A DNA stretch of 64,000 nucleotides. Source: Arenicellaceae bacterium. GTDB lineage: Bacteria > Pseudomonadota > Gammaproteobacteria > Arenicellales > Arenicellaceae. The notes under the pieces are model-generated. The model saw only the letters and a list, made by a program, of their open reading frames with translations, made no database searches and was not told the origin of the DNA. Position 1 is the first letter of the stretch, and the number at the start of each line of letters is the position of its first letter. The DNA lies in the NCBI GenBank assembly GCA_029246505.1, contig JAQWNC010000028.1:62001-126000 (forward strand), written 5' to 3'. Positions 32,985 through 44,983 of this stretch are shown piece after piece. The translations under genes and the position numbers were made by a program.

Positions 32985-34082
32985 TTATTTTTTAAATTGA
33001 GTAGCTATACCTTCTACACCCTCCCACTGAGGAGTGCAATTAAATAGCTCAACCTGACGACCGGGTTCCCACTTTCTGGAAGATTCACGTACATAAGGCT
33101 TAGTAAACACCACGGGGTCGTTGATGGTAATCTGATAACTCAACAAATTGCCATCATCCGAGGCCGAAAACCGCTCGCTATAACTCACTTGCTCCGACTG
33201 TGGAATACCCACTTCATCGTAGTACGCCCAACTCACGCCGGTGGTGTTCACTACCAGTGTGTTGCCTTCCCATTTACCCTCAGAATAACCAAGCGGAGAT
33301 AGCTCTTTTTCCATTTGAGTATTCTGGGCATTCATGTGGATTACACGCTCTACGTCATACTCTTGAAGGTGAATAAGAATACGCTCACCTTGATTGACTA
33401 TTTCCATTGGGGAGCCTCGATCAAACATTGTTTCTGGCATTCCTTGTGTGCAATCTAGCTCATAATTGTCTTTGAGTGGGTCATACGCTGCCGCTAATTG
33501 ACGACCTTTATCAGTAAAAAAAGGTTCATACTCAGCTGGCTTTATTCCGGGTTCCTGCACATTAGCCCAAACACGGAAAACACCATCTGCAGACTGTTTT
33601 GCCGCCTCGACCGTCGACACATCAAGATCTTGAAACTCACCTGCCATTCGTTGAGTGGACCAGCGCAGCTCGCGATTCCTACCATTTACGAACTCCCGAC
33701 CATTGGTAAGCAACATATGCAATACCCCGAGTGAGGCAGTCTCAATTTTTGATATAAACCCGGCAACTTTAATCTGATCGCCCACCTGAACTATGTCGGT
33801 GGCACCGATTCCCATGCGCCGATAACCGTTTATGCTTCCGTTCATTTCCAACTCCCAAATAGTTTCTTCCTTGGACTCGTTCACAACACTGAGTTTAAAT
33901 CGAGGATGCGGATTGCGCCAAAATATAGCGGTTACCTCGCCTTCAAGTTCAACCAAATTCTCAGCCCGATAAAGCTCCGGATTAACAATCGATCCATGAT
34001 GCGCAAGCGCTCCAGCTGGTGCGAATATCCCTATTGCCCAACCTAAAACAGCTAGTACGAAACGTCTATTTAAAATCAACAT
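32985..34082 (-). CDS. Exported DUF6152-like protein (paralogue A)
   Basis: Periplasmic protein of unknown function. From ATG 34082 it has 365 residues (a start at 34100 adds six). The signal peptide has NRR in its n-region and ends ALA, so the mature protein would begin HHGS (His28-His29). The first 100 mature residues form an OB-like unit (LVELEGEVTAIFWRNPHPRF), followed by a unique C-terminal part (SPLGYSEGKWEGNTLVVNTTGVSWAYYDEVG) present in its neighbour too. The WRNPHP/V motif and leading His-His are shared by both copies. Gene order suggests a three-gene operon with paralogue B and the DsrE-like gene (139- to 207-nt gaps). Confidence 0.75.
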   Translation of the reverse strand: MLILNRRFVLAVLGWAIGIFAPAGALAHHGSIVNPELYRAENLVELEGEVTAIFWRNPHPRFKLSVVNESKEETIWELEMNGSINGYRRMGIGATDIVQVGDQIKVAGFISKIETASLGVLHMLLTNGREFVNGRNRELRWSTQRMAGEFQDLDVSTVEAAKQSADGVFRVWANVQEPGIKPAEYEPFFTDKGRQLAAAYDPLKDNYELDCTQGMPETMFDRGSPMEIVNQGERILIHLQEYDVERVIHMNAQNTQMEKELSPLGYSEGKWEGNTLVVNTTGVSWAYYDEVGIPQSEQVSYSERFSASDDGNLLSYQITINDPVVFTKPYVRESSRKWEPGRQVELFNCTPQWEGVEGIATQFKK

Positions 34083-34239
34083 TGTAATGTCCCCATACAT
34101 TAAAAGTTCAGTATTAGCTTAATAACAATGCCTACTAATCCTTAATTGAAAAAAGTCTACGCCCAGCGGTAAGCTGAGTCTTGCGCTAGCTTACACCCCT
34201 AAGAGCTAAGAAAATATAACGAAGTTTCTTCAGGCAATG

Positions 34240-35289
34240 CTAAATCACGCAATCATACGGCTCTACTTTGGCATCTGGAAGCGCTAACCAACGTTTGGTA
34301 AGTTCAATCGGCTCGGTAAATGTCGTTGGGTCCGTAACAGTCAATTTATAACGTAAAGACTTCCCATTCTCGCTTAAAATAAAATGCTCTACAAATGTAG
34401 CATCAGGACCTTGCGGAAGACCAATTCCATTAAAATGAGCGTAATTGACGCGGCTGGTTTCTACTACCAGAATGTCAGCTTCCCAGTGCCCGACAGAATA
34501 CCCAAGTAGTGATAAAGGCTGCTCATCAGCTGTCGCATCCGATTTCATATGTACTATCCGCAACGCCGCGTACTCTTCTAGGCGGATATGAATAGCATCG
34601 CCTTGCTGCGAGATTTCCATAGGATATGGTTGCTCCATTGCTATCGGCATTCCTTTCGGTGCACAATTGAGTGTCGCTATATCGGTTAGAGGATCAAAAA
34701 CTTCTAGCGCAGCCCTTGCCTCATCTGTCATCGGATATCTAGCGGCAAGGGTAGGATCAAAGGTTTCGGGAAAAGGAAATGCATCAGGGTCAATCACCGA
34801 GGTACTCCAAACCCTAAAAATACCGGTCTTTTGGTCTTCTGCATCATCTTCCGTTGCCACCCACTTATTGGATGACGAAACTGATTCTCCCCAACGCGGC
34901 TTACCCCATGGTTCAAAAACAATCTCTAGTCCGCTTGGCAATAACAGGTTAATTACAAACATCGCATAATCCTGATGCCGTGCCGGATGACCCGCGACCT
35001 TAACCTTGTCACCAACTTTAAGGACGGTTGAATCAATATCCATCCTGCGCATAATGCTCAATGCGTGGCTTTCAACCTGATAAATTACTTCCTGCCCTTG
35101 CGCATCATTAACTTTAAGTTCAAATACCACATGCGGATTTCGCCAGCCCACACTGGTAATTTCACCTTCCAACTCATTTACCACTTCGATATTAAAAGTC
35201 GAAGCAAAACTATGGTGAGCGCTTGCAAAGCTTGGGCTGATCAACAGACACAAAACAGTCGTCCATCTAACTAATTTTGAAAATCTCAC
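34240..35289 (-). CDS. Exported DUF6152-like protein (paralogue B)
   Basis: Second copy, 349 residues from GTG 35289 (TTG at 35325 would add twelve). The chosen start gives a clean signal peptide MRFSKLVRWTTVLCLLISPS ending ASA, with a mature terminus HHSF (His25-His26). Shared with paralogue A: LEGEITSVGWRNPHVVF, the KVAGH/KVAGF turn, SLLGYSVGHWEADILVVETSRVNYAHF and TDPTTFTEP near the end. The copies are clearly divergent, so the duplication is old or they were acquired separately. Function unknown; the exposed mature His-His and further conserved His residues suggest metal binding (inference). Confidence 0.75.
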   Translation of the reverse strand: MRFSKLVRWTTVLCLLISPSFASAHHSFASTFNIEVVNELEGEITSVGWRNPHVVFELKVNDAQGQEVIYQVESHALSIMRRMDIDSTVLKVGDKVKVAGHPARHQDYAMFVINLLLPSGLEIVFEPWGKPRWGESVSSSNKWVATEDDAEDQKTGIFRVWSTSVIDPDAFPFPETFDPTLAARYPMTDEARAALEVFDPLTDIATLNCAPKGMPIAMEQPYPMEISQQGDAIHIRLEEYAALRIVHMKSDATADEQPLSLLGYSVGHWEADILVVETSRVNYAHFNGIGLPQGPDATFVEHFILSENGKSLRYKLTVTDPTTFTEPIELTKRWLALPDAKVEPYDCVI

Positions 35290-35356
35290 ACAGTTTTTCC
35301 CTATTAACTTATCGTTGGTTAACAAATTGTAGTATAGAACAAATAGATTTTAAATC

Positions 35357-35902
35357 TTACCCGCCTACTTTTACGTAACCATCGAGTTGAAATTCCAGCA
35401 AGGTAGTTAGTGCCCAGTAATCGAGCTGAACTTCGGAAACGATACTCGCAGGGTCAATTTTCTTGCTAACCACAGCTTGCCCACATTGCCGAAAATCTAC
35501 TCCAGCATTTTTAAGATCGGTAAGCAATTTCAGATTCGGGTTGTCACTGCCTCCGTTACGAGCTCGGTGAGCTTTATTGTTTAGGATTACTTCCGTCGCA
35601 TTTTGGTGAATCACCACCGCTATGTGTCGATGCTCTGCTGGCACTCCTTGCTTATCCAACGTGTTCAAAAACATGCCTACACCGACCAAACCAGGGTTTA
35701 CGGTATCCGCATCGGCTGCTCCTGCAACGATATCAAAAACCACCTTGTAGTCTAATTCGGAACTGGGCATACCGACCGCACCAGGAACCTCAACTTTTAC
35801 CCCAACATCAGGCACCGGCAAATCAGTATTCTCTTGCGCAAAAGTGTGGCCGGCCGTTAAAACAAAAGCCGACATAGATGTAAACATTAACCATGTTTTC
35901 AT
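35357..35902 (-). CDS. Exported DsrE/DsrF-like protein
   Basis: 181-residue protein with a signal peptide (about 1-22, ending TFA) and a DsrE-like alpha/beta domain (YKVVFDIVAGA, HIAVVIHQNATEV, LLTDLKNAGVDFRQCGQAV). Cys140 is at the position of the reactive cysteine in DsrE-fold sulfur-trafficking proteins. Periplasmic members are of unknown function. Probably first gene of the operon with the two DUF6152-like genes. Confidence 0.72.
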   Translation of the reverse strand: MKTWLMFTSMSAFVLTAGHTFAQENTDLPVPDVGVKVEVPGAVGMPSSELDYKVVFDIVAGAADADTVNPGLVGVGMFLNTLDKQGVPAEHRHIAVVIHQNATEVILNNKAHRARNGGSDNPNLKLLTDLKNAGVDFRQCGQAVVSKKIDPASIVSEVQLDYWALTTLLEFQLDGYVKVGG

Positions 35903-36142
35903 ATCTTTCCTCTAGGATGAATTTAACTACTCAACTGACTAGGCAAGTAGACAGCCCTATCAGCAGAAAATTGTTTCGTTAGCAAATAGTGTATCGATTT
36001 AAATAGCAGGAACCAAATCCTTACAAGTAATGAATATATGAAATGATAAGCTATTAAAGAAGCCATATTGATCAAGAACGCCCCAACGGGCTAAAATTAC
36101 ACATTACCGGCATCAGGCCGGAAATCTTTTGGGGAGAAAATC

Positions 36143-37390
36143 ATGTACCACCATTTTCGTAAATTGATATTGGCTATTCCTGTCGTGCTATTTGGATCTG
36201 GCTTGTTTGACTTGGCCCAAGCGCAAGAGTTACCGGATGGCCCAGGGAAAGAACTGGTTAGCGCCACATGCGTGGCGTGCCATGAGATTGAGTTAATTCC
36301 ACTGTCTGCGGGCTATACCCATGAACAATGGCGATATTTAGTATCGAAAATGATTGATCTACCAGAGCCTTTATCCAACGACATCCTTCAATACTTAGCT
36401 ACCAATTTCCCGCATAGCGACCGACTTCAACCAACGCTTGTTAACGGTGATTTGGAGATCACTTTTCAGGAGTGGCACGTACCAACACTCGGGCAACGTG
36501 CACGTGACCCAATAATGACGCCCGACGGCATGATCTGGTGGACTGGAATGTTTGGCAGCCTGGTTGGCCGACTGAACCCGGCAACGGGTGAGATGACAGA
36601 ATTCAAACTCGATCCAACCGCACGGCCGCACAGCATCATTAATGATGCTGCTGGGAATATCTGGTACACGGGTAATAGCAACGGAACTATGGGCAAACTG
36701 GACCCTAAAACTGGCGAAATTACCGTATACCCAATGCCGGACCCTGAAGCAAAGGATCCACATACGCCAATTGTCACGCAAAATGGCGATATTTGGTTCA
36801 CTATTCAAAATAGTAATATGCTCGGTCGCCTGGTGCCAGATACCGGTGATATTCGTTTGACGAAAATGCCTAGGGAACGTGCGCGACCATATGGAATAAA
36901 AGAAGATTCCAAGGGCACAGTTTGGATTGCTTATCGCGGCAGCAATGCAGTTGCCAGCGTAAATCCAGAAACCTGGAAAATTACAGAATACGAAACACCA
37001 AACCCGGACCCTGCATCCCATGCCGGTGGATATTACATACGTCGTTTGGCAATCGATAGCCAAGATAACATTTGGTACGCCGACTCCGGGCGTGGCTATT
37101 TAGGGCGACTCAACCCAAGCACGGGTGAAATCAAAGAATGGCCATCGCCCAGTGGGCCTAAATCTCACCCGTATGCGATTGAAGTTGTTGATGACATTAT
37201 TTGGTACAACGAATCTGACCAACGGCCGGATGCATTGGTTCGCTTCGACCCCCAAACCGAGAAATTCCAGAGCTGGACAATACCGTCAGGCATTGGGGTT
37301 ATTCGGCACATGACAAAAACACCCGACGGCAATCTGGTTATTCACCAAAGTAGTACCAATACAGTCGGATTGGTAACCATACCAAAATAG
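36143..37390 (+). CDS. Exported cytochrome c-like domain fused to a Vgb-type beta-propeller
   Basis: 415-residue periplasmic protein: signal peptide (about 1-27, ending AQA), a short cytochrome c-type region with one haem-binding motif CVACH (Cys43, Cys46, His47), then from about residue 105 a beta-propeller of the virginiamycin B lyase (streptogramin lyase) type made of repeated blades with x-G-x-I-W-(Y/F)-T and LGRL(N/D)PxTGE. A possible distal haem ligand Met lies in VSKMIDLPEP (about 68-77). In Vgb the propeller cleaves a cyclic lactone; here it may simply be a sensor or scaffold. A GGGGAGAA ribosome-binding site precedes the ATG. Confidence 0.83.
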   Translation: MYHHFRKLILAIPVVLFGSGLFDLAQAQELPDGPGKELVSATCVACHEIELIPLSAGYTHEQWRYLVSKMIDLPEPLSNDILQYLATNFPHSDRLQPTLVNGDLEITFQEWHVPTLGQRARDPIMTPDGMIWWTGMFGSLVGRLNPATGEMTEFKLDPTARPHSIINDAAGNIWYTGNSNGTMGKLDPKTGEITVYPMPDPEAKDPHTPIVTQNGDIWFTIQNSNMLGRLVPDTGDIRLTKMPRERARPYGIKEDSKGTVWIAYRGSNAVASVNPETWKITEYETPNPDPASHAGGYYIRRLAIDSQDNIWYADSGRGYLGRLNPSTGEIKEWPSPSGPKSHPYAIEVVDDIIWYNESDQRPDALVRFDPQTEKFQSWTIPSGIGVIRHMTKTPDGNLVIHQSSTNTVGLVTIPK

Positions 37391-37428
37391 CGCTCTATGC
37401 ACTTGCGGGACTGGCCGCTTGGAAGCTT

Positions 37429-37608
37429 TTATTGAAGAGCTTCTGGCGGCCGGAAAGGCACGAATCTGATCAGGCGCTTACGGGCGACTTCTCCGGAATA
37501 TATGTTACCGGAGAAATCGACGCCGAGTAATTCTATAAAGGCACCGACGTCTTCCTCATGTTGAGGAATAAAATGTGTTACCCATGCTTGTTCATAGAAA
37601 ATGCCTCT
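37429..37608 (-). pseudogene. Possible 3' remnant of an unknown gene
   Basis: An open minus-strand frame of about 60 codons with protein-like composition (GIFYEQAWVTHFIPQHEEDV, then VARKRLIRFVPFRPPEALQ) runs to TAA at 37431-37429, but has a TGA directly upstream and no start codon. It lies between the converging propeller genes. It includes a perfect inverted repeat TTCTCCGG/CCGGAGAA (37489-37496 and 37508-37515) with an 11-nt loop. No T tract follows, so I do not call a terminator. Confidence 0.3.
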
Positions 37609-37641
37609 TCAAATAGTCAATAAACTGCTCTGCTGAATTGC

Positions 37642-39162
37642 CTATCGATTGCGATCGTAAGATCCGATATCTTCGTAACCCACGCCACTGCAGGAAAGTG
37701 ATCCATAGCGAATAAACTTTTGAATACGGGGGCCGTTATCTACTTCGCCGGTATAAACATTACCTTCCGAATCCACTGCCAGAATATGAATCCAGTTAAA
37801 CTCTCCGACCTGCCGGCCACGTCTACCAACACGATCAAGTTCCGTATAGTTCTCGCGATTTACAATGTAAAAAGTTCCGTTAGCTAAATCAGCTACGTAC
37901 ATGCAGCTCTGTTCTGGGTCAGTAGAAAATGCTGCTGCCACGGCCGTACCGCTGGCGCTATATGGCGCTATAGGCACATCTCTTACAAAGCCACAGACCC
38001 CAGGTTCAGCATTAGGATTAGCACACTCGCCCTGACCAACCTCATTTACATCAAATACCTGAATTCGGTTATTGCTCCGGTCACAAGCATAAAGTAACCC
38101 ATCTTTACTAAGTGTGGCGCAATGCAATGGGCTACGATAAAACATCGGCGTCAAATTACCCGCCTTGTAATCCCCAGCCCACGGCCCTGCATTGTATGGG
38201 TCAATATCTGTTCCTTCAGGATCATCTACCGGGTTTTGCCCGTAGGCGCCAAAATGTGCGATGTATTGCCCGTTTTCAGCGTCGACAATTAATACGCGTT
38301 TATTTCCATAACCATCGGCGATGTACATTCGATTAGTTTCTGGATCCACCGTCATATCTGCAACTAGATACGGTTGCGGCGTGCCATTTGGGCCACTATT
38401 TGTATCTTCGCTATCCGGCGCTTCTCTACCGGCATGGCCAATCTGATAAATAAACTCTCCGTCCGCGGTAAATTTTAAAATATGTGAATCATCGCCATAG
38501 GTCGCGGCCCACGGAAACTGGCCGGTAAAATTTGTACCGTTACCGGAAATATATACAAAGTCGTTATGGTCAACATAAATGCCGTGCTCTCGACCAGGCC
38601 AGAAACAGCCATCCGGTTCACGACAATTATTTTCTAAAAATCCTGGATCCTGCGGCCCGCCCCAGGAATCCAGTAAATTTCCTTGCGGATCGAATTTCAA
38701 CACTGACGGCGCAACCGAACAACAACCGGCAATCTGATCTGCCAAAACCCTTGAATTGCCCATCGCATCAATTGGGTTTCCATCAGCATCGGTGCCCGCT
38801 ACGCCAAGACCTCGCACAGAACTCTCATCCAATGATCTTCCACGGTGATACACCCAAATATTGTCGTGGGAATCCACGGATAAACCACCGACCTGACCAA
38901 TTAGCCAGTTATTTGGCATATGCTTGGGCCAGGTTGGATCAACGACGAAACTTGGGGCTGTTGCTCCTTCAGCCACTCTAGGTTCAGACCGTTCTTTCAA
39001 AAAATCCAGAGTGTTGTGTGTAAAAGGTCCTGCGGCATCTGCTGCGGAAACATTCGCGGATGGAGTAACTACCTCGATCCCTGTATTTGAATCTGAACAC
39101 GCGGAAAGACCCAAAAAACTAATTAAAAGAACTGCTACACCCAAGCGTTTTGATTCAATCAT
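37642..39162 (-). CDS. NHL-repeat beta-propeller lipoprotein
   Basis: 506-residue exported protein with a lipoprotein signal (FLGLSAC, Cys22). The rest is a six-bladed NHL-type propeller: blades show the pattern of SVDSHDNIWVYHRG, ILKFTADGEFIYQIG, DPETNRMYIADGYGNKRVLI and LYACDRSNNRIQVFDV. Such propellers occur in peptidyl-alpha-hydroxyglycine lyase-like proteins and many bacterial secreted proteins with unknown ligands. Several Cys pairs (AGCCS and others) suggest disulfides. It converges with the cytochrome c/propeller gene. Confidence 0.82.
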   Translation of the reverse strand: MIESKRLGVAVLLISFLGLSACSDSNTGIEVVTPSANVSAADAAGPFTHNTLDFLKERSEPRVAEGATAPSFVVDPTWPKHMPNNWLIGQVGGLSVDSHDNIWVYHRGRSLDESSVRGLGVAGTDADGNPIDAMGNSRVLADQIAGCCSVAPSVLKFDPQGNLLDSWGGPQDPGFLENNCREPDGCFWPGREHGIYVDHNDFVYISGNGTNFTGQFPWAATYGDDSHILKFTADGEFIYQIGHAGREAPDSEDTNSGPNGTPQPYLVADMTVDPETNRMYIADGYGNKRVLIVDAENGQYIAHFGAYGQNPVDDPEGTDIDPYNAGPWAGDYKAGNLTPMFYRSPLHCATLSKDGLLYACDRSNNRIQVFDVNEVGQGECANPNAEPGVCGFVRDVPIAPYSASGTAVAAAFSTDPEQSCMYVADLANGTFYIVNRENYTELDRVGRRGRQVGEFNWIHILAVDSEGNVYTGEVDNGPRIQKFIRYGSLSCSGVGYEDIGSYDRNR

Positions 39163-39407
39163 CTTTTATCCCCCTAAATTTAGACCTGTGTAACCACCTA
39201 AATACTAAAACTGCGGTTTTACCACACATTCGTAATAGAACGAATAAGATTGGGCACAATAGTACGCAAATCTGGCGCAAATGCGATCCTCAGTGTTTTA
39301 AGGAAGGCTATAGCTAGCTCTGGCACCATCCTGATAACAGATCAAATTCAATTTACATCGGTAGTGGGCCGAAGCAGCGCTACTTGAGCGGTACTGCTTT
39401 GAGCCTA

Positions 39408-40340
39408 TTACAAGGATAAAAGGTGAGTACTCATCCGTTTACGAGTAGCTTCGTCAGGAAGCCCCCCATAGCCCGCTCGCATATTATCGATCAAATGGCT
39501 AACCTTGCTAGTTTCGGTAACAACACTGGTTATCGCTGGATTAGATAGAATGTATTTTAATGAGAACTGTGCCCACGACTCGCAGTCGAAGTCGGCCGTC
39601 CATTCGGGTAGTTCTTTATCCGCAACCACACTAAAAAATGCACCATCGTCAAAGGCTTTAAACGGCTCAACCGCAATAACTGCAATGCCAATATCTGCGG
39701 CCAGCGGCAAAATGCGCTCGGCTGGCCCCTGCTGGGTAATAGAATACCCCGGCATAATAAAATCAGGATTTTCATCCCTCATAAACTTTTCCAGTGGATC
39801 ATAATCAGTTTTTCTGGTCAGACTAACGCCAATGTATCGAACTCGGCCAGTATTTTTCCATTCTTTTAAGATCGGCCACTGGATGTCCAGTTCACGCATA
39901 TTGTGCAGTAACAGTAAATCAATAGGTTGCTTGTTTAAATTCGCCACCAACTTCTCAAGGTGCACGGTAGCAGCTTCCTTTCCGTTTACTGTGCTCTTTC
40001 CGATCAGGAATAGATCTTTCTGCACGCCCATCTCGGTAAGTAGTCCACCAACTGCCGGCACGTTTGGCCGAAAGAACGCAGGTGTATCCATTAATTTGCC
40101 GCCCATATCCATCATAGTTTGAATAATAGACATCGGTAGTTCTTTGCCTACCTCTTGATAGTCAACAAAAATATCGGGGGCACCCATTCCCACCACTGGT
40201 AATTGCTCGTCAGTCCCTGGAATCACGCGGGTACGCATCGATTCTTGTGCAAAAGCTGCTGTTGGCAACGAGGCAGCCGCGGCCAAAGTAGCGCTCTGCG
40301 TAAGGAATTTTCTTCTGTTCACTGATCTAAATTTTGACAC
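39408..40340 (-). CDS. Tat-exported aldo/keto reductase-family protein
   Basis: 310-residue AKR-fold protein preceded by a twin-arginine signal (VNRRKFLTQS, Arg9-Arg10; cleavage near AFA-QE). AKR barrel features: the catalytic Asp85 in LMDTP, Lys115 in LIGKS and His146 in LLLLHN. The tyrosine that completes the AKR tetrad, five residues after the Asp, is Phe90. NADPH-dependent reduction is therefore doubtful, both for the missing Tyr and because the periplasm has little NADPH. AKR-like Tat proteins are known in bacterial genomes without assigned function. Clustered with other exported proteins. Confidence 0.78.
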   Translation of the reverse strand: MSKFRSVNRRKFLTQSATLAAAASLPTAAFAQESMRTRVIPGTDEQLPVVGMGAPDIFVDYQEVGKELPMSIIQTMMDMGGKLMDTPAFFRPNVPAVGGLLTEMGVQKDLFLIGKSTVNGKEAATVHLEKLVANLNKQPIDLLLLHNMRELDIQWPILKEWKNTGRVRYIGVSLTRKTDYDPLEKFMRDENPDFIMPGYSITQQGPAERILPLAADIGIAVIAVEPFKAFDDGAFFSVVADKELPEWTADFDCESWAQFSLKYILSNPAITSVVTETSKVSHLIDNMRAGYGGLPDEATRKRMSTHLLSL

Positions 40341-40572
40341 TGGTACATACTCCTAGGCGTTCTTTCAATTATGGGGGTCGAATATAAATAGGCTAGCATC
40401 AGATCCGCACAAATGCAGCAGCCCTTACGTAGTAGGTACATAGAGTTGCAGATACCTAGATTAACAAGTAATAGGTTGTTGGTAGCCGTAAAGTAACAAT
40501 CTATCCTGATTTGGATATTACTAAACAAATAAGTAATTTATACTTGTTTTTTTAATTAAATAGGAGCATCAA

Positions 40573-41610
40573 ATGAATATAAATCGCGTTGTCGTTCTTT
40601 CCAGCTTACTTCTAATATTAGGTGTACCGTCTAGCTCCTTTGCTCAACAGGAACCAACGAGATCTATCACTCAGATAACCGGTGATTTATATCGCGGCCA
40701 AAATAATAATCACTTTACTGTTTTCCTGGTCACCGAAGAAGGGATTATCCTCGCCGACCCTATTAATCCAGAATTCTCTGCTTGGCTCAAAAGCGAACTT
40801 GATACCCGATTTGGCGTGCCAGTGAAGTATGTGCTGTACAGCCATCATCATGGCGATCACGCCTCTGGTGGTGATGTCTTTTCCGATACCGCCACGTTTA
40901 TTGGCCATGAAAACATGTTGACTCACATGGCAATGCCTCCAGAGTCCACGCCACTGCCTCTCGAGGGACAATACGCAATTGCCGCAACAATGGACGCCAA
41001 CGGCAATGGTATGGTTGAGCGAAGCGAAGCAAGTGGTGCTGTACTCGCTAATTTTGTCGGGTTTGACGAGAATGGCGACAACATCCTAAGCGGTGCAGAA
41101 ATATTACGTGGCCCGATTAGCCAAGTGCGAGAGCCTGAAGTTACCTATGCCACAAATACCGTAATTACACTGGGTGGTAAAAATGTTGAGATGACCTGGG
41201 TAGGAGAGATGAATCACTCAGCGGATATGAGCGTGATCACCTTTCCTGAAGAGAGAGCAATGCATATCGTCGATTTTATTACTTTCCAACGCTTGCCGTA
41301 TCGAGAAATGGACTTTGAGAACAGCATGTTTGACGAGTGGATGGCTGCTATAAATCATTGGGAGACTGTGTCGACAGACTACGAGTTCATCTCACCTGGG
41401 CACGGCCCCTTGGGCGATACTTCTGACGTTACAGAATGGCGTATTTATTTTGATCAATTACGTGGTGCTGTAAGCGAAGGTATTGCAGCAGGTCAAACAC
41501 TCGAAGATATGAGAGAAAATATTAAATTGGACGATTACAGCGAATGGTCAGGATATTCCTGGTTACATGAGAATGTACTAGGCATGTATCACTTTTTAAC
41601 GGATGAATAG
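40573..41610 (+). CDS. Exported metallo-beta-lactamase-fold hydrolase with inserted EF-hand pair
   Basis: 345-residue periplasmic protein: signal peptide (about 1-24, ending SFA), then an MBL-fold domain with the zinc motif HHHGDH (H91, H93, D95, H96), His215 in MNHSADM, Asp234 in HIVDF and SPGHGPLG near the end. Between the first strand-helix unit and the second zinc ligand there is an insert with two EF-hand-like loops: DANGNGMVERSE (141-152) and DENGDNILSGAE (165-176), both with acidic residues at calcium positions 1, 3, 5 and 12 (loop 1 has Asp, Asn, Asn, Glu). Calcium may thus gate or stabilise the enzyme. The substrate is unknown. Confidence 0.85.
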   Translation: MNINRVVVLSSLLLILGVPSSSFAQQEPTRSITQITGDLYRGQNNNHFTVFLVTEEGIILADPINPEFSAWLKSELDTRFGVPVKYVLYSHHHGDHASGGDVFSDTATFIGHENMLTHMAMPPESTPLPLEGQYAIAATMDANGNGMVERSEASGAVLANFVGFDENGDNILSGAEILRGPISQVREPEVTYATNTVITLGGKNVEMTWVGEMNHSADMSVITFPEERAMHIVDFITFQRLPYREMDFENSMFDEWMAAINHWETVSTDYEFISPGHGPLGDTSDVTEWRIYFDQLRGAVSEGIAAGQTLEDMRENIKLDDYSEWSGYSWLHENVLGMYHFLTDE

Positions 41611-41715: not shown

Positions 41716-42624
41716 CTAAGCAACATGACTGGGTCCAACCAATGTGGTTAAAACAGCAGTGGTCAGGAGAATAATAAAACCCAGAACCATCTCGATCTGG
41801 ATAGAGCGAGCCAATCGGTCGGGATACTCTGATTGCAGCAGGAGCCCTGGAACCAGACGCAACTTATGATACAGCGCCAGTAAAAGGATGGTGGTGACCA
41901 CTATCAGTTTTGCGGACAAGATCTGCCCGTATTCGGTCAACCACAGCGCACTGACGGAGTTGAGCAATTGCGTCGCTACGAAAATGCCTACCGTAATCAG
42001 CAAAGCGACATTGAACTGGGCGAGCCGACCAAACCGCTGCATAATACTATGCAGGTGCCCTCTATCGAGCTTTTTGCAACTGAACCAGAGTGGCCAGAGC
42101 GTACCCATCCACCAAGCGATCGCCACCACATGTAAGCTCAAGGCAAGTTTTGCCCATAAATGAAGTTCTGCAGTGTGTCCAATATTTACAAAGGAAAACC
42201 CCAACAGATATAACGCAACTAACCACAGAGTAAAGGCCAAAAGACGTAAAAAACCTGCCCCATAGAAATTTTTGGGCGCTCGAAAAGCGGCCATCGCCAC
42301 AAGCATTAATGCAAATCCAAGTCCACGCCAGAGCGTTGATTCACCCACCGCCGAACCCCAAAGAATGGTACGTAATAGTGGATTCCACATACCGCCAAAT
42401 CCGGTCTCAGCAAGCGCTCCAATCTGCACAACAAAAGCCAATCCTGTAGCCAACAACGCGACAACTATCGATATCCATAAATATCGATTTAATGATTGCC
42501 TAAGACTGTTAGCATTTATTCCAAAAATAAATACTGTATTCACACCGCCGACTGCAGCTGAAAATCCAAGGTAAATACCCAGTTTACAAATTACTAGCAT
42601 TAGCGCCCAGAGACTCAGTTCCAT
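41716..42624 (-). CDS. copD: CopD-family copper resistance membrane protein
   Basis: 302-residue inner-membrane protein with about eight hydrophobic helices and the CopD family features (WRGLGFALMLVAMA, HTAELHLWAKLALSLHVVAIAWWMGTLWPLW). CopD is thought to take copper from periplasmic CopC into the cytoplasm or membrane. It follows copC by 14 nt and is probably in one transcript with copC and the cusA remnant. Several His residues within membrane helices are plausible copper ligands. Confidence 0.88.
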   Translation of the reverse strand: MELSLWALMLVICKLGIYLGFSAAVGGVNTVFIFGINANSLRQSLNRYLWISIVVALLATGLAFVVQIGALAETGFGGMWNPLLRTILWGSAVGESTLWRGLGFALMLVAMAAFRAPKNFYGAGFLRLLAFTLWLVALYLLGFSFVNIGHTAELHLWAKLALSLHVVAIAWWMGTLWPLWFSCKKLDRGHLHSIMQRFGRLAQFNVALLITVGIFVATQLLNSVSALWLTEYGQILSAKLIVVTTILLLALYHKLRLVPGLLLQSEYPDRLARSIQIEMVLGFIILLTTAVLTTLVGPSHVA

Positions 42625-42638
42625 AGAGCCTGCCTCAA

Positions 42639-43094
42639 TTACTGACCGCTGTGGCTCTGTTGATCGCCCGATGACTCCACTTCGCCCTCAGTCGTCGTTG
42701 GCATAGCCATCTCACCGTGATCTCTCATGGGCAAACCAGCACCCTGAACCATAAATTCAAATGAGCCAGTTATCTGGTGACCGTCACCACCTAGCAGCCC
42801 CCAAGTCACTTGATAATCACCAATGGCTAGCTCCGGTACGGCCACACTAAATGTAGCACTTGCCGTAACCGAGGGAATGAAATTCACCTCAACACGATAG
42901 CCGCTAATTTTGCTGACAACCTCGAACTTGATCAAATTGACTTTTGCCATAAATTTCAATTCGATCACTTCGGGGCTTCCCACCAGCATGGCGTTATTGT
43001 TAGGGACTGAGCTTTTCAATCCTGTATGCGCATAACTGTTAGCGCCCAGAATAAGGGTAATAAACAGAGTGAAAATTAGACTGGTTCTTTTCAT
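42639..43094 (-). CDS. copC: CopC-family periplasmic copper-binding protein
   Basis: 151-residue exported protein. The signal peptide ends SYA, leaving His23 as first mature residue; with Asp104 and His106 in GGDGHQITG this gives the known CopC Cu(II) site (N-terminal His, Asp and His of the DGH motif). Immunoglobulin-like strands LKSSVPNNNAMLVGSPEVIELKF and YQVTWGLLGGDGHQ are typical. A Met/His-containing tail (PMRDHGEMAMP, and QQSHSG) may add copper sites. The start overlaps the cusA stop by 4 nt. Confidence 0.9.
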   Translation of the reverse strand: MKRTSLIFTLFITLILGANSYAHTGLKSSVPNNNAMLVGSPEVIELKFMAKVNLIKFEVVSKISGYRVEVNFIPSVTASATFSVAVPELAIGDYQVTWGLLGGDGHQITGSFEFMVQGAGLPMRDHGEMAMPTTTEGEVESSGDQQSHSGQ

Positions 43095-44983
43095 GGTTTA
43101 GCTCCTGAGCGGTGGTTAACTGAAATATATTGAGTAGATTTAGTAAGCAGAAATCTCTGCCATAGAAAATAGATACTGGGTAATACCAGCAAGGTCAACA
43201 AGACTGAGCTAACCATACCCCCAACCATGGGTGCCGCTAGTCGGCTCATCACTTCTGAGCCGGTTCCAGTGCCTAACATAATGGGTACCAAACCAATGAT
43301 GGTGGCACCCGCGGTCATGAGAACGGGACGCACTCGCAACCCAGCGCCTTGCAACACCGCGCTAGCGAGCATCTGTGTCGTTATGCTTTGTTGTTGTGAG
43401 TGACTTTGCTCATGTAACTCTCGCAGCGACTGATTTAGATAGACAAGCATGATCACTCCAGTTTCCACCGCAAGACCTGCCAGAGCGATCAACCCCACAC
43501 CTACGGCGATCGAGAAGTTAAAATCAAGCCAATACATCAGCCACACACTTCCCACCAGCGAAAGCGGCATGATTACCATGAGAAGGACTACCGGCATCGC
43601 GCGTCCAAAATTTATGTAAAGCAGTATCACAATAATCGCAAGAGTGAGCGGCACCATGTAGTTAAGTTTTTCCTTTGCGCGCAGCATGTATTCATACTGA
43701 CCAGACCAGTTAAGTGAATACCCAACAGGTAGTTCCAGTTGAGAGTTAACCGTTTGCATGGCTTGCTTAACGTAGCTGCCTACATCGATACCATCGATGT
43801 CCACATAGGTCCAACCGTTAATACGCGAATTCTCACTTTTGATACTTGGTGGGCCGTTTTCTATGTAGACGCTAGCAACATCTCCTAGTGCAATGCGTTG
43901 TCCCATTGGGGTAATTATAGGCAGCAAAGCCAACTGCTCAGGAGAATCCCGATAGGCTTGTGGATAACGTAAATTAACCGGATAGCGCTCTAAACCTTCT
44001 ACTGTTTGAGTAACGTTCATACCACCAATCGCAGACGCTACAACTTGTTGCACATCGGCAATATTTAGACCAAAACGCGAAGCCCTTTCTCGATCAATGT
44101 CAACTCTTATGTAGCGACCACCTGCAACGCGCTCGGAATAGACAGACGCTGTACCTGGAACCTCTGCCAGAATCCGTTCAAGCTCTTGACCAATGGATTG
44201 AATTTTACTGAGATCCGCTCCAGCAACTTTGATACCGACGGGAGTTTTTATACCCGTTGCCAACATATCGATTCGGGTTTTAATCGGCATGACCCACGCG
44301 TTGGTGATACCAGGTAATTCTAGCAGTGTGTCGAATTCCTGCTTAAGGGATTCCGTCGTAACTCCTTCACGCCATTCGCTATGATCCTTTAGCTGGATAA
44401 ACGTCTCGATCATTGTCAACGGCGCAGGGTCTGTCGCCGTTTCAGCTCGCCCCACCTTACCAAACACTGTTTCCACCTCAGGCGCAGTGCGAATCAGCTT
44501 GTCAGTTTGTTGCAGCAATTCCCTAGCCTTTCCAATAGAAATACCTGGGTAGGTGATCGGCATATACATCAGGTCACCCTCATCTAGTTCGGGCATAAAC
44601 TCACTACCGATGCGTTGCAATGGCCAAAGACTAGTGGTAGCAATCAGCAAGGTTATAAGTAACGTGGATTTTGGGAAACGTAACACCGTTTTAAGCATAG
44701 GCATGTAGGCCGTAATCAAAATCCGATTCGCTGGATTCTTCTGTTCCGGCAGTATTTTTCCACGAATAAAAAAGCCCATTAAGACGGGCACCAGCGTGAT
44801 AGCTAACACAGCAGCAGCGCCCATCGCATAGGTTTTAGTGAATGCAAGTGGAGAGAACATGCGGCCTTCTTGCGCTTCCAATGTGAATACCGGAATAAAA
44901 CTGACGGTAATAATTAACAAACTAAAAAAAAGAGCTGGGCCAACTTCTGTAGCAGAATCTGCCACGATCTGCCAGCGGTTTTC
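43091..44983 (-). pseudogene. cusA: 5'-truncated CusA-type heavy-metal RND efflux pump
   Basis: The frame gives 624 residues from GTG 44965, matching only the C-terminal 60% of CusA (full length about 1,040). Homology begins at codons for ENRWQIVADSATEVGPALF, directly after an in-frame TAG (44986-44984); everything before that (first half of the pump, including the first porter domain and helix bundle start) is absent. Conserved CusA pieces remain: RIDMLATGIKTPVGIKVAG and GTGSEVMSRLAAPMVGG. No cusB or cusC is present. It cannot make a functional trimeric pump, though the downstream copC still depends on this region for coupled translation. Confidence 0.88.

Follow-up and report, generated by a model that had tools for sequence, protein, structure and literature searches.

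Why should seven consecutive bacterial genes all encode proteins destined for export, and does such an arrangement mean that they act together? Here, I discuss a block of this kind at positions 32985-41610 of a 64,000-nucleotide stretch of DNA from an Arenicellaceae bacterium (this whole stretch being the window), which an initial annotation had proposed to be a single periplasmic system degrading or sensing a small, possibly lactone-like, organic compound. The answer that I will argue for is a different one, namely that the block is a run of genes for exported proteins, set in a genome that carries approximately 100 copies of the family DUF6152, and that DUF6152 is an exported, histidine-brace-like copper protein paired with a barrel, a reading that I consider evenly poised between right and wrong.

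All seven open reading frames are present, each with a recognizable domain (Table 1), and the identities first assigned to their products are borne out by Pfam matches and by haem-c, lipobox and Tat motifs. The curated cut-off of the DUF6152 family (PF19649) is 27 bits, which is exceeded by both DUF6152 proteins of the window and by the 100 matches in the genome, and the virginiamycin-B-lyase-type (Vgb) propeller protein reaches 125.8 bits with PF24684 against a cut-off of 50, its lyase activity being a prediction only. The proposal that all seven are exported through the Sec, lipoprotein or Tat routes also holds, since signals can be seen by eye in each protein, while a rough signal script flagged five of the seven and missed the DsrE-like protein and the Tat-exported aldo/keto-reductase-fold protein (AKR). 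The two EF-hand-like loops attributed to the MBL-fold hydrolase are visible (DANGNGMVERSE and DENGDNILSGAE), but their Pfam score is only E=0.15.

Table 1. Genes and sequence motifs of the block, in window coordinates.
Feature	Position	Strand	Supporting detail
D6152a, long-form DUF6152 (Sec signal, OB-fold domain, C-terminal barrel-like domain)	32985..34100	-	PF19649 3.5e-10, 40.3 bits
D6152a His-His codons	33996..34001	-	predicted mature N-terminus HH, cut after GALA
D6152a conserved NPH motif (invariant Pro-His)	33906..33914	-	
D6152b, long-form DUF6152 (Sec signal, OB-fold domain, C-terminal FABP-like barrel)	34240..35325	-	PF19649 5.5e-16, 58.9 bits; AlphaFold mean pLDDT 88.7
D6152b His1-His2 codons	35212..35217	-	predicted mature N-terminus HH, cut after ASA
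D6152b NPH motif (N27, invariant P28-H29)	35131..35139	-	
DsrE-like exported protein, 31 bp upstream of D6152b	35357..35902	-	Pfam DsrE 4.3e-7
Exported cytochrome c / virginiamycin-B-lyase-type propeller	36143..37390	+	Vgb_lyase 1.9e-36; haem-c motif CVACH at 36269-36283
NHL propeller lipoprotein	37642..39162	-	Pfam NHL 3.6e-9; lipobox LSAC
Tat-exported aldo/keto-reductase-fold protein (AKR)	39408..40340	-	Aldo_ket_red 9.5e-17; Tat motif NRRKFL
Exported MBL-fold hydrolase, two EF-hand-like loops	40573..41610	+	Lactamase_B 4.3e-5; HHHGDH at 40843-40860

Read from left to right, the strands of the seven genes run minus, minus, minus, plus, minus, minus, plus, a mixture that demands at least four transcription units and rules out a single operon for the whole block; the only plausible three-gene operon is the minus-strand trio on the left, consisting of the two DUF6152 genes and the DsrE-like gene. 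Exported genes are also frequent across the window as a whole, where the rough script counts approximately 25 among 55. An MMPL membrane protein borders the block on one side, and on the other are CopD, CopC and CusA-like RND genes, which directly adjoin it on the minus strand at 41716-44965.

The family behind the first two genes is listed in Pfam (PF19649) as one of unknown function and a literature search found no paper naming it; what is read here for DUF6152 is its mature N-terminal His-His, its OB fold, its partner domain and its copy number. In the 2.64 Mb of the source genome, PF19649 matches 100 times, or once per 26 kb; the matches are distributed over 20 of the 30 contigs, and four of these matches contain internal stops. 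The one other genome of the same genus carries 38, the remaining 19 members of the family carry none, and in an even draw the domain is present in 7 of 368 other genomes of the class and 40 of 398 other genomes of the phylum, with a maximum of eight copies. Sampling through loci encoding AKR relatives, which is biased, leads to genomes with at least 150, 148, 123, 74, 57, 56, 51 and 15 copies and to others with 0-2. An assembly or contamination artefact is ruled out by the 97.5% completeness and 0.22% contamination of the source genome, by the spread over 20 contigs and by the expansion in several independent metagenome-assembled genomes (MAGs).

Throughout this large and divergent family, one feature stays fixed. 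Among 61 regex matches from the source genome and its relatives, 60 obey the -3/-1 signal-peptidase rule for a cut placed exactly before His-His (the 61st being a partner-domain open reading frame and not a DUF6152), and none obeys it at positions HH+1 to HH+4; across all sampled DUF6152 proteins (>80 sequences), the same rule places the cut directly before HH save in one borderline case. An internal [N/Q]PH follows approximately 27 residues after HH, with PH ranging over approximately 26-31 residues, and among 57 aligned sequences, whose mean column identity is 22%, the invariant columns are H1, H2, P28 and H29 only. Similarly, 22 of 22 DUF6152 proteins in a phylum-wide sample keep the cut before HH together with PH at mature position 27-29, and both motifs are kept in six copies carried on alphaproteobacterial plasmids. 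A copy on a Novosphingobium plasmid (L135:4596-5324) carries the Tat-like signal RRAFLK and replaces NPH by MPH, its HH still being at the cut. It is thus strongly supported, by the signal-peptidase rule, that DUF6152 is exported by Sec and cleaved exactly before His-His, and the two N-terminal histidines together with the third conserved one suggest an undescribed metal site, perhaps for copper.

The predicted structure adds a second element. The N-terminal domain is modelled by AlphaFold as an OB fold with a pLDDT of 93.6, and Foldseek relates this model with a probability of 1.0 to the OB domains of SSB, LysRS and IF-1; the first ten residues are a less certain part of the models (mean pLDDT 72 and 82), and a sequence search for solved structures found none matching DUF6152. 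The C-terminal domain of the long form, taken from the D6152b model, matches CRABP, FABP and bile-acid-binding proteins at a Foldseek probability of 1.0 and an E-value of ~1e-3, a marginal likeness given the TM-score of ~0.5 and rmsd of 6-7 A. It differs from these FABP/calycin barrels in that there is no sequence match (nor does any Pfam family match the domain) and in having two invariant cysteines (C185 and C323), and I know of no FABP with the WEGDTLVV-type motif found here. The same barrel domain is also encoded as a separate exported protein that aligns to residues ~130-360 of the long forms, and each of the 14 such genes in the targeted stretches lies immediately beside a short DUF6152 gene, a pairing also seen in the cultured Croceibacterium atlanticum and Novosphingobium humi. 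Since the two domains are either fused or adjacent, gene-fusion evidence argues that DUF6152 and the barrel act together.

In the histidine-brace copper proteins, which include the lytic polysaccharide monooxygenases (LPMOs), PmoB, X325 and YcnI, removal of the signal peptide is what frees the ligating amine (PMC10952591). DUF6152 resembles them in its mature N-terminal histidine, as predicted by the sequence rule, and in possessing a further conserved internal histidine (H29), but it is unlike them in its predicted OB fold and in the invariance of a second histidine at position 2. To my knowledge, none of the known histidine-brace proteins is an OB fold, and a literature search found no description of an OB-fold histidine brace. 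The Ig-like beta-sandwich of LPMOs in particular is not what is predicted for DUF6152, the OB prediction being confident and no LPMO appearing among the PDB matches listed.

The periplasmic copper protein family CopC (PF04234) offers another comparison, as both it and DUF6152 are exported with a mature N-terminal histidine; however, there is no detectable homology between the two, and the OB fold is not the CopC beta-sandwich. As a candidate CopC relative, DUF6152 was rejected with an hhalign probability of 6% to the CopC of the window and no Pfam CopC match. The arrangement of CopC with CopD (PF05425) is nevertheless echoed in a single-copy branch of DUF6152 starting with HHGW, where a small membrane protein, DUF6644, directly follows in four genomes (L158, L159, L161 and L163), and nine columns of a six-sequence DUF6644 alignment are invariant, one of them a histidine. 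Here again the likeness stops short of detectable homology, with a profile comparison giving DUF6644 a 0.3% probability of being a CopD relative. A literature search found no paper naming DUF6644, and the HHGW-type DUF6152 with DUF6644 is a possible undescribed metal-handling pair. Such a CopC-CopD-like arrangement would fit a copper-handling origin. Counting against a copper site, most DUF6152 genes in the stretches that were annotated do not lie beside copper genes.

Now considering these elements together, the mature OB domain, after Sec export and signal-peptidase cleavage, would expose a free N-terminal His1, His2 and an internal Pro-His near residue 28, and these residues may form a putative histidine-brace-like site for a metal, most likely Cu(II), that could be occupied only after export because a free amine is needed. 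Metal binding of some kind I regard as quite likely from the conservation pattern, whereas the choice of copper in particular is a matter on which I would come down equally readily on either side. The second domain, fused or supplied as a separate exported partner by the next gene, would be an FABP/lipocalin-like barrel that binds a small hydrophobic or aromatic molecule, and such ligand binding has about an even chance of being correct. Divergent paralogues might then keep the metal site while varying the barrel for different ligands, and would work alongside periplasmic PQQ dehydrogenases, cytochromes, propellers, amidohydrolases and esterases, with the metal site serving as catalyst or chaperone. 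Oxygenase chemistry is improbable; it is similarly doubtful, and offered as a speculation, that DUF6152 is an undescribed OB-fold copper histidine-brace scaffold working as a periplasmic oxygenase or peroxygenase, in which the barrel, fused or as a partner, holds the substrate and the 50-150 copies reached in some proteobacteria provide a combinatorial kit for attacking diverse organic molecules.

The neighbours of DUF6152, surveyed over targeted stretches rather than whole gene-called genomes, bear on a competing interpretation. In the source genome and its relatives they include exported amidohydrolases, sulfatases, aryl-sulfotransferase-like proteins and esterases, as well as TonB receptors, TRAP and tricarboxylate transporters, a molybdopterin dehydrogenase and cytochromes. 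PQQ dehydrogenases (PQQ-cytochrome or PQQ) adjoin or nearly adjoin DUF6152 in the same-genus genome (L113) and in a genome of another class (L165), a dihaem cytochrome adjoins it in L118 and a cytochrome b561-YceI follows a DUF6152 cluster in L164. These associations would suit DUF6152 histidines that bind haem, or zinc, nickel or iron, instead of copper, making the protein a haem or metal carrier or an electron-transfer protein for periplasmic cytochromes and quinoproteins, and a precedent exists in the haem chaperone CcmE, which is likewise a periplasmic OB-fold protein with a haem-binding histidine. However, in the stretches retrieved, proteins with CxxCH are only mildly commoner close to DUF6152 (4 of 82 versus 3 of 207, a weak enrichment) and haem ligation requires no histidine exactly at the mature N-terminus, so that I consider this interpretation unlikely. 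I place in the same low range the idea that DUF6152 binds no metal at all, that HH and PH are structural or serve to bind a polymer or peptide, and that the expansion reflects nothing more than the duplication of ligand-binding proteins with an export signal: the metal site is, after all, deduced from sequence, OB folds commonly bind oligomers and the paired barrel resembles lipid-binding proteins, but an HH pinned to the cleavage site that is, with PH, the sole never-changing feature is hard to square with a purely structural role.

Preferring, for these reasons, a histidine-brace-like metal site paired with a barrel, I return to the block itself, whose conservation was followed in 109 genomes of the order, using five block proteins and the DUF6152 family as queries, and in 80 named loci encoding AKR relatives. 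The same-genus comparison consists of one genome (G020, MAG SI074_bin90), in which the findable orthologues are scattered over three contigs: a D6152a fragment (76% identity) on C184 with a PQQ-cytochrome dehydrogenase, NHL, DsrE and a TRAP transporter (DctP, Q and M), the Vgb orthologue (89%) on C232 and the MBL orthologue (78%) on C76. No AKR orthologue was found there, and the best AKR match, at only 61%, is probably a paralogue. Short contigs could explain part of this scatter, yet the immediate neighbours differ too, as at L113:520-8009 the PQQ-cytochrome dehydrogenase lies between the D6152a fragment and NHL. In the same place, NHL, DsrE, DctP, DctQ and DctM are co-directional with short gaps, so that DsrE there appears to belong to a TRAP transporter operon.

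Further afield, partial sets recur. One MAG locus (L009) brings together, in ~9 kb, Vgb (72% identity), AKR (65%), DUF6152, an NHL propeller and an MBL-fold protein from a subfamily other than that of the block, and a second (L015) combines MBL (57%), four DUF6152 and AKR (48%) within 8.7 kb. AKR adjoins DUF6152 in six loci elsewhere (L009, L010, L015, L063, L074 and L086) and at two of the source genome, adjacencies that may share inheritance and not be independent. Of the five AKR copies in the source genome, three have a DUF6152 within 2 kb, as against 12.6% of the genome at large; with DUF6152 so abundant there, its presence in the block carries little weight. AKR relatives with 63-68% identity are also present in the genomes of L012 and L014, which have no DUF6152. 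An NHL propeller gene adjoins a split DUF6152/partner pair in two other MAGs and at two places in the source genome (L055, L086, L122 and L126).

The AKR protein raises its own question of function. Asp85 and Lys115, which are invariant in its family, are kept, the canonical Tyr is replaced in the window protein and in most relatives and the His is not conserved in the family; with the Asp-Tyr-Lys-His tetrad incomplete, a canonical aldo/keto reductase is rejected, and by its residues this Tat-exported family is probably not a classical reductase. It is frequent in Gemmatimonadota and in gammaproteobacterial MAGs.

The expectation that the seven families would co-localize in other genomes was therefore borne out for pairs and partial sets but not for the whole, the complete seven-gene set having been seen in no other genome among those of the order and the AKR loci, and a fixed seven-gene system is rejected, not being kept even in the sister genome. 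Some block families keep company, at best as a loose association. The idea that all seven genes serve a single periplasmic pathway, degrading or sensing a small organic compound, has in its favor their shared export and this partial recurrence, but with mixed strands, a sister genome that holds the genes on three contigs with other partners, close AKR relatives in genomes lacking DUF6152 and an AKR without its catalytic Tyr, it is very improbable, and no evidence points towards the lactone-like compound.

What, then, would the proposed role of DUF6152 mean? If copper is confirmed, this would be a histidine brace on a fold where I know of none, and the invariant mature N-terminal histidines provide a specific and cheap test for the metal site; since DUF6152 genes also occur in cultured sphingomonads, the question can be taken to the bench. 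Estimating roughly one gene per kb, DUF6152 accounts for about 4% of the genes in a small proteobacterial genome, a share that, together with the 50-150 copies in several MAGs, points to a family central to how those bacteria live.
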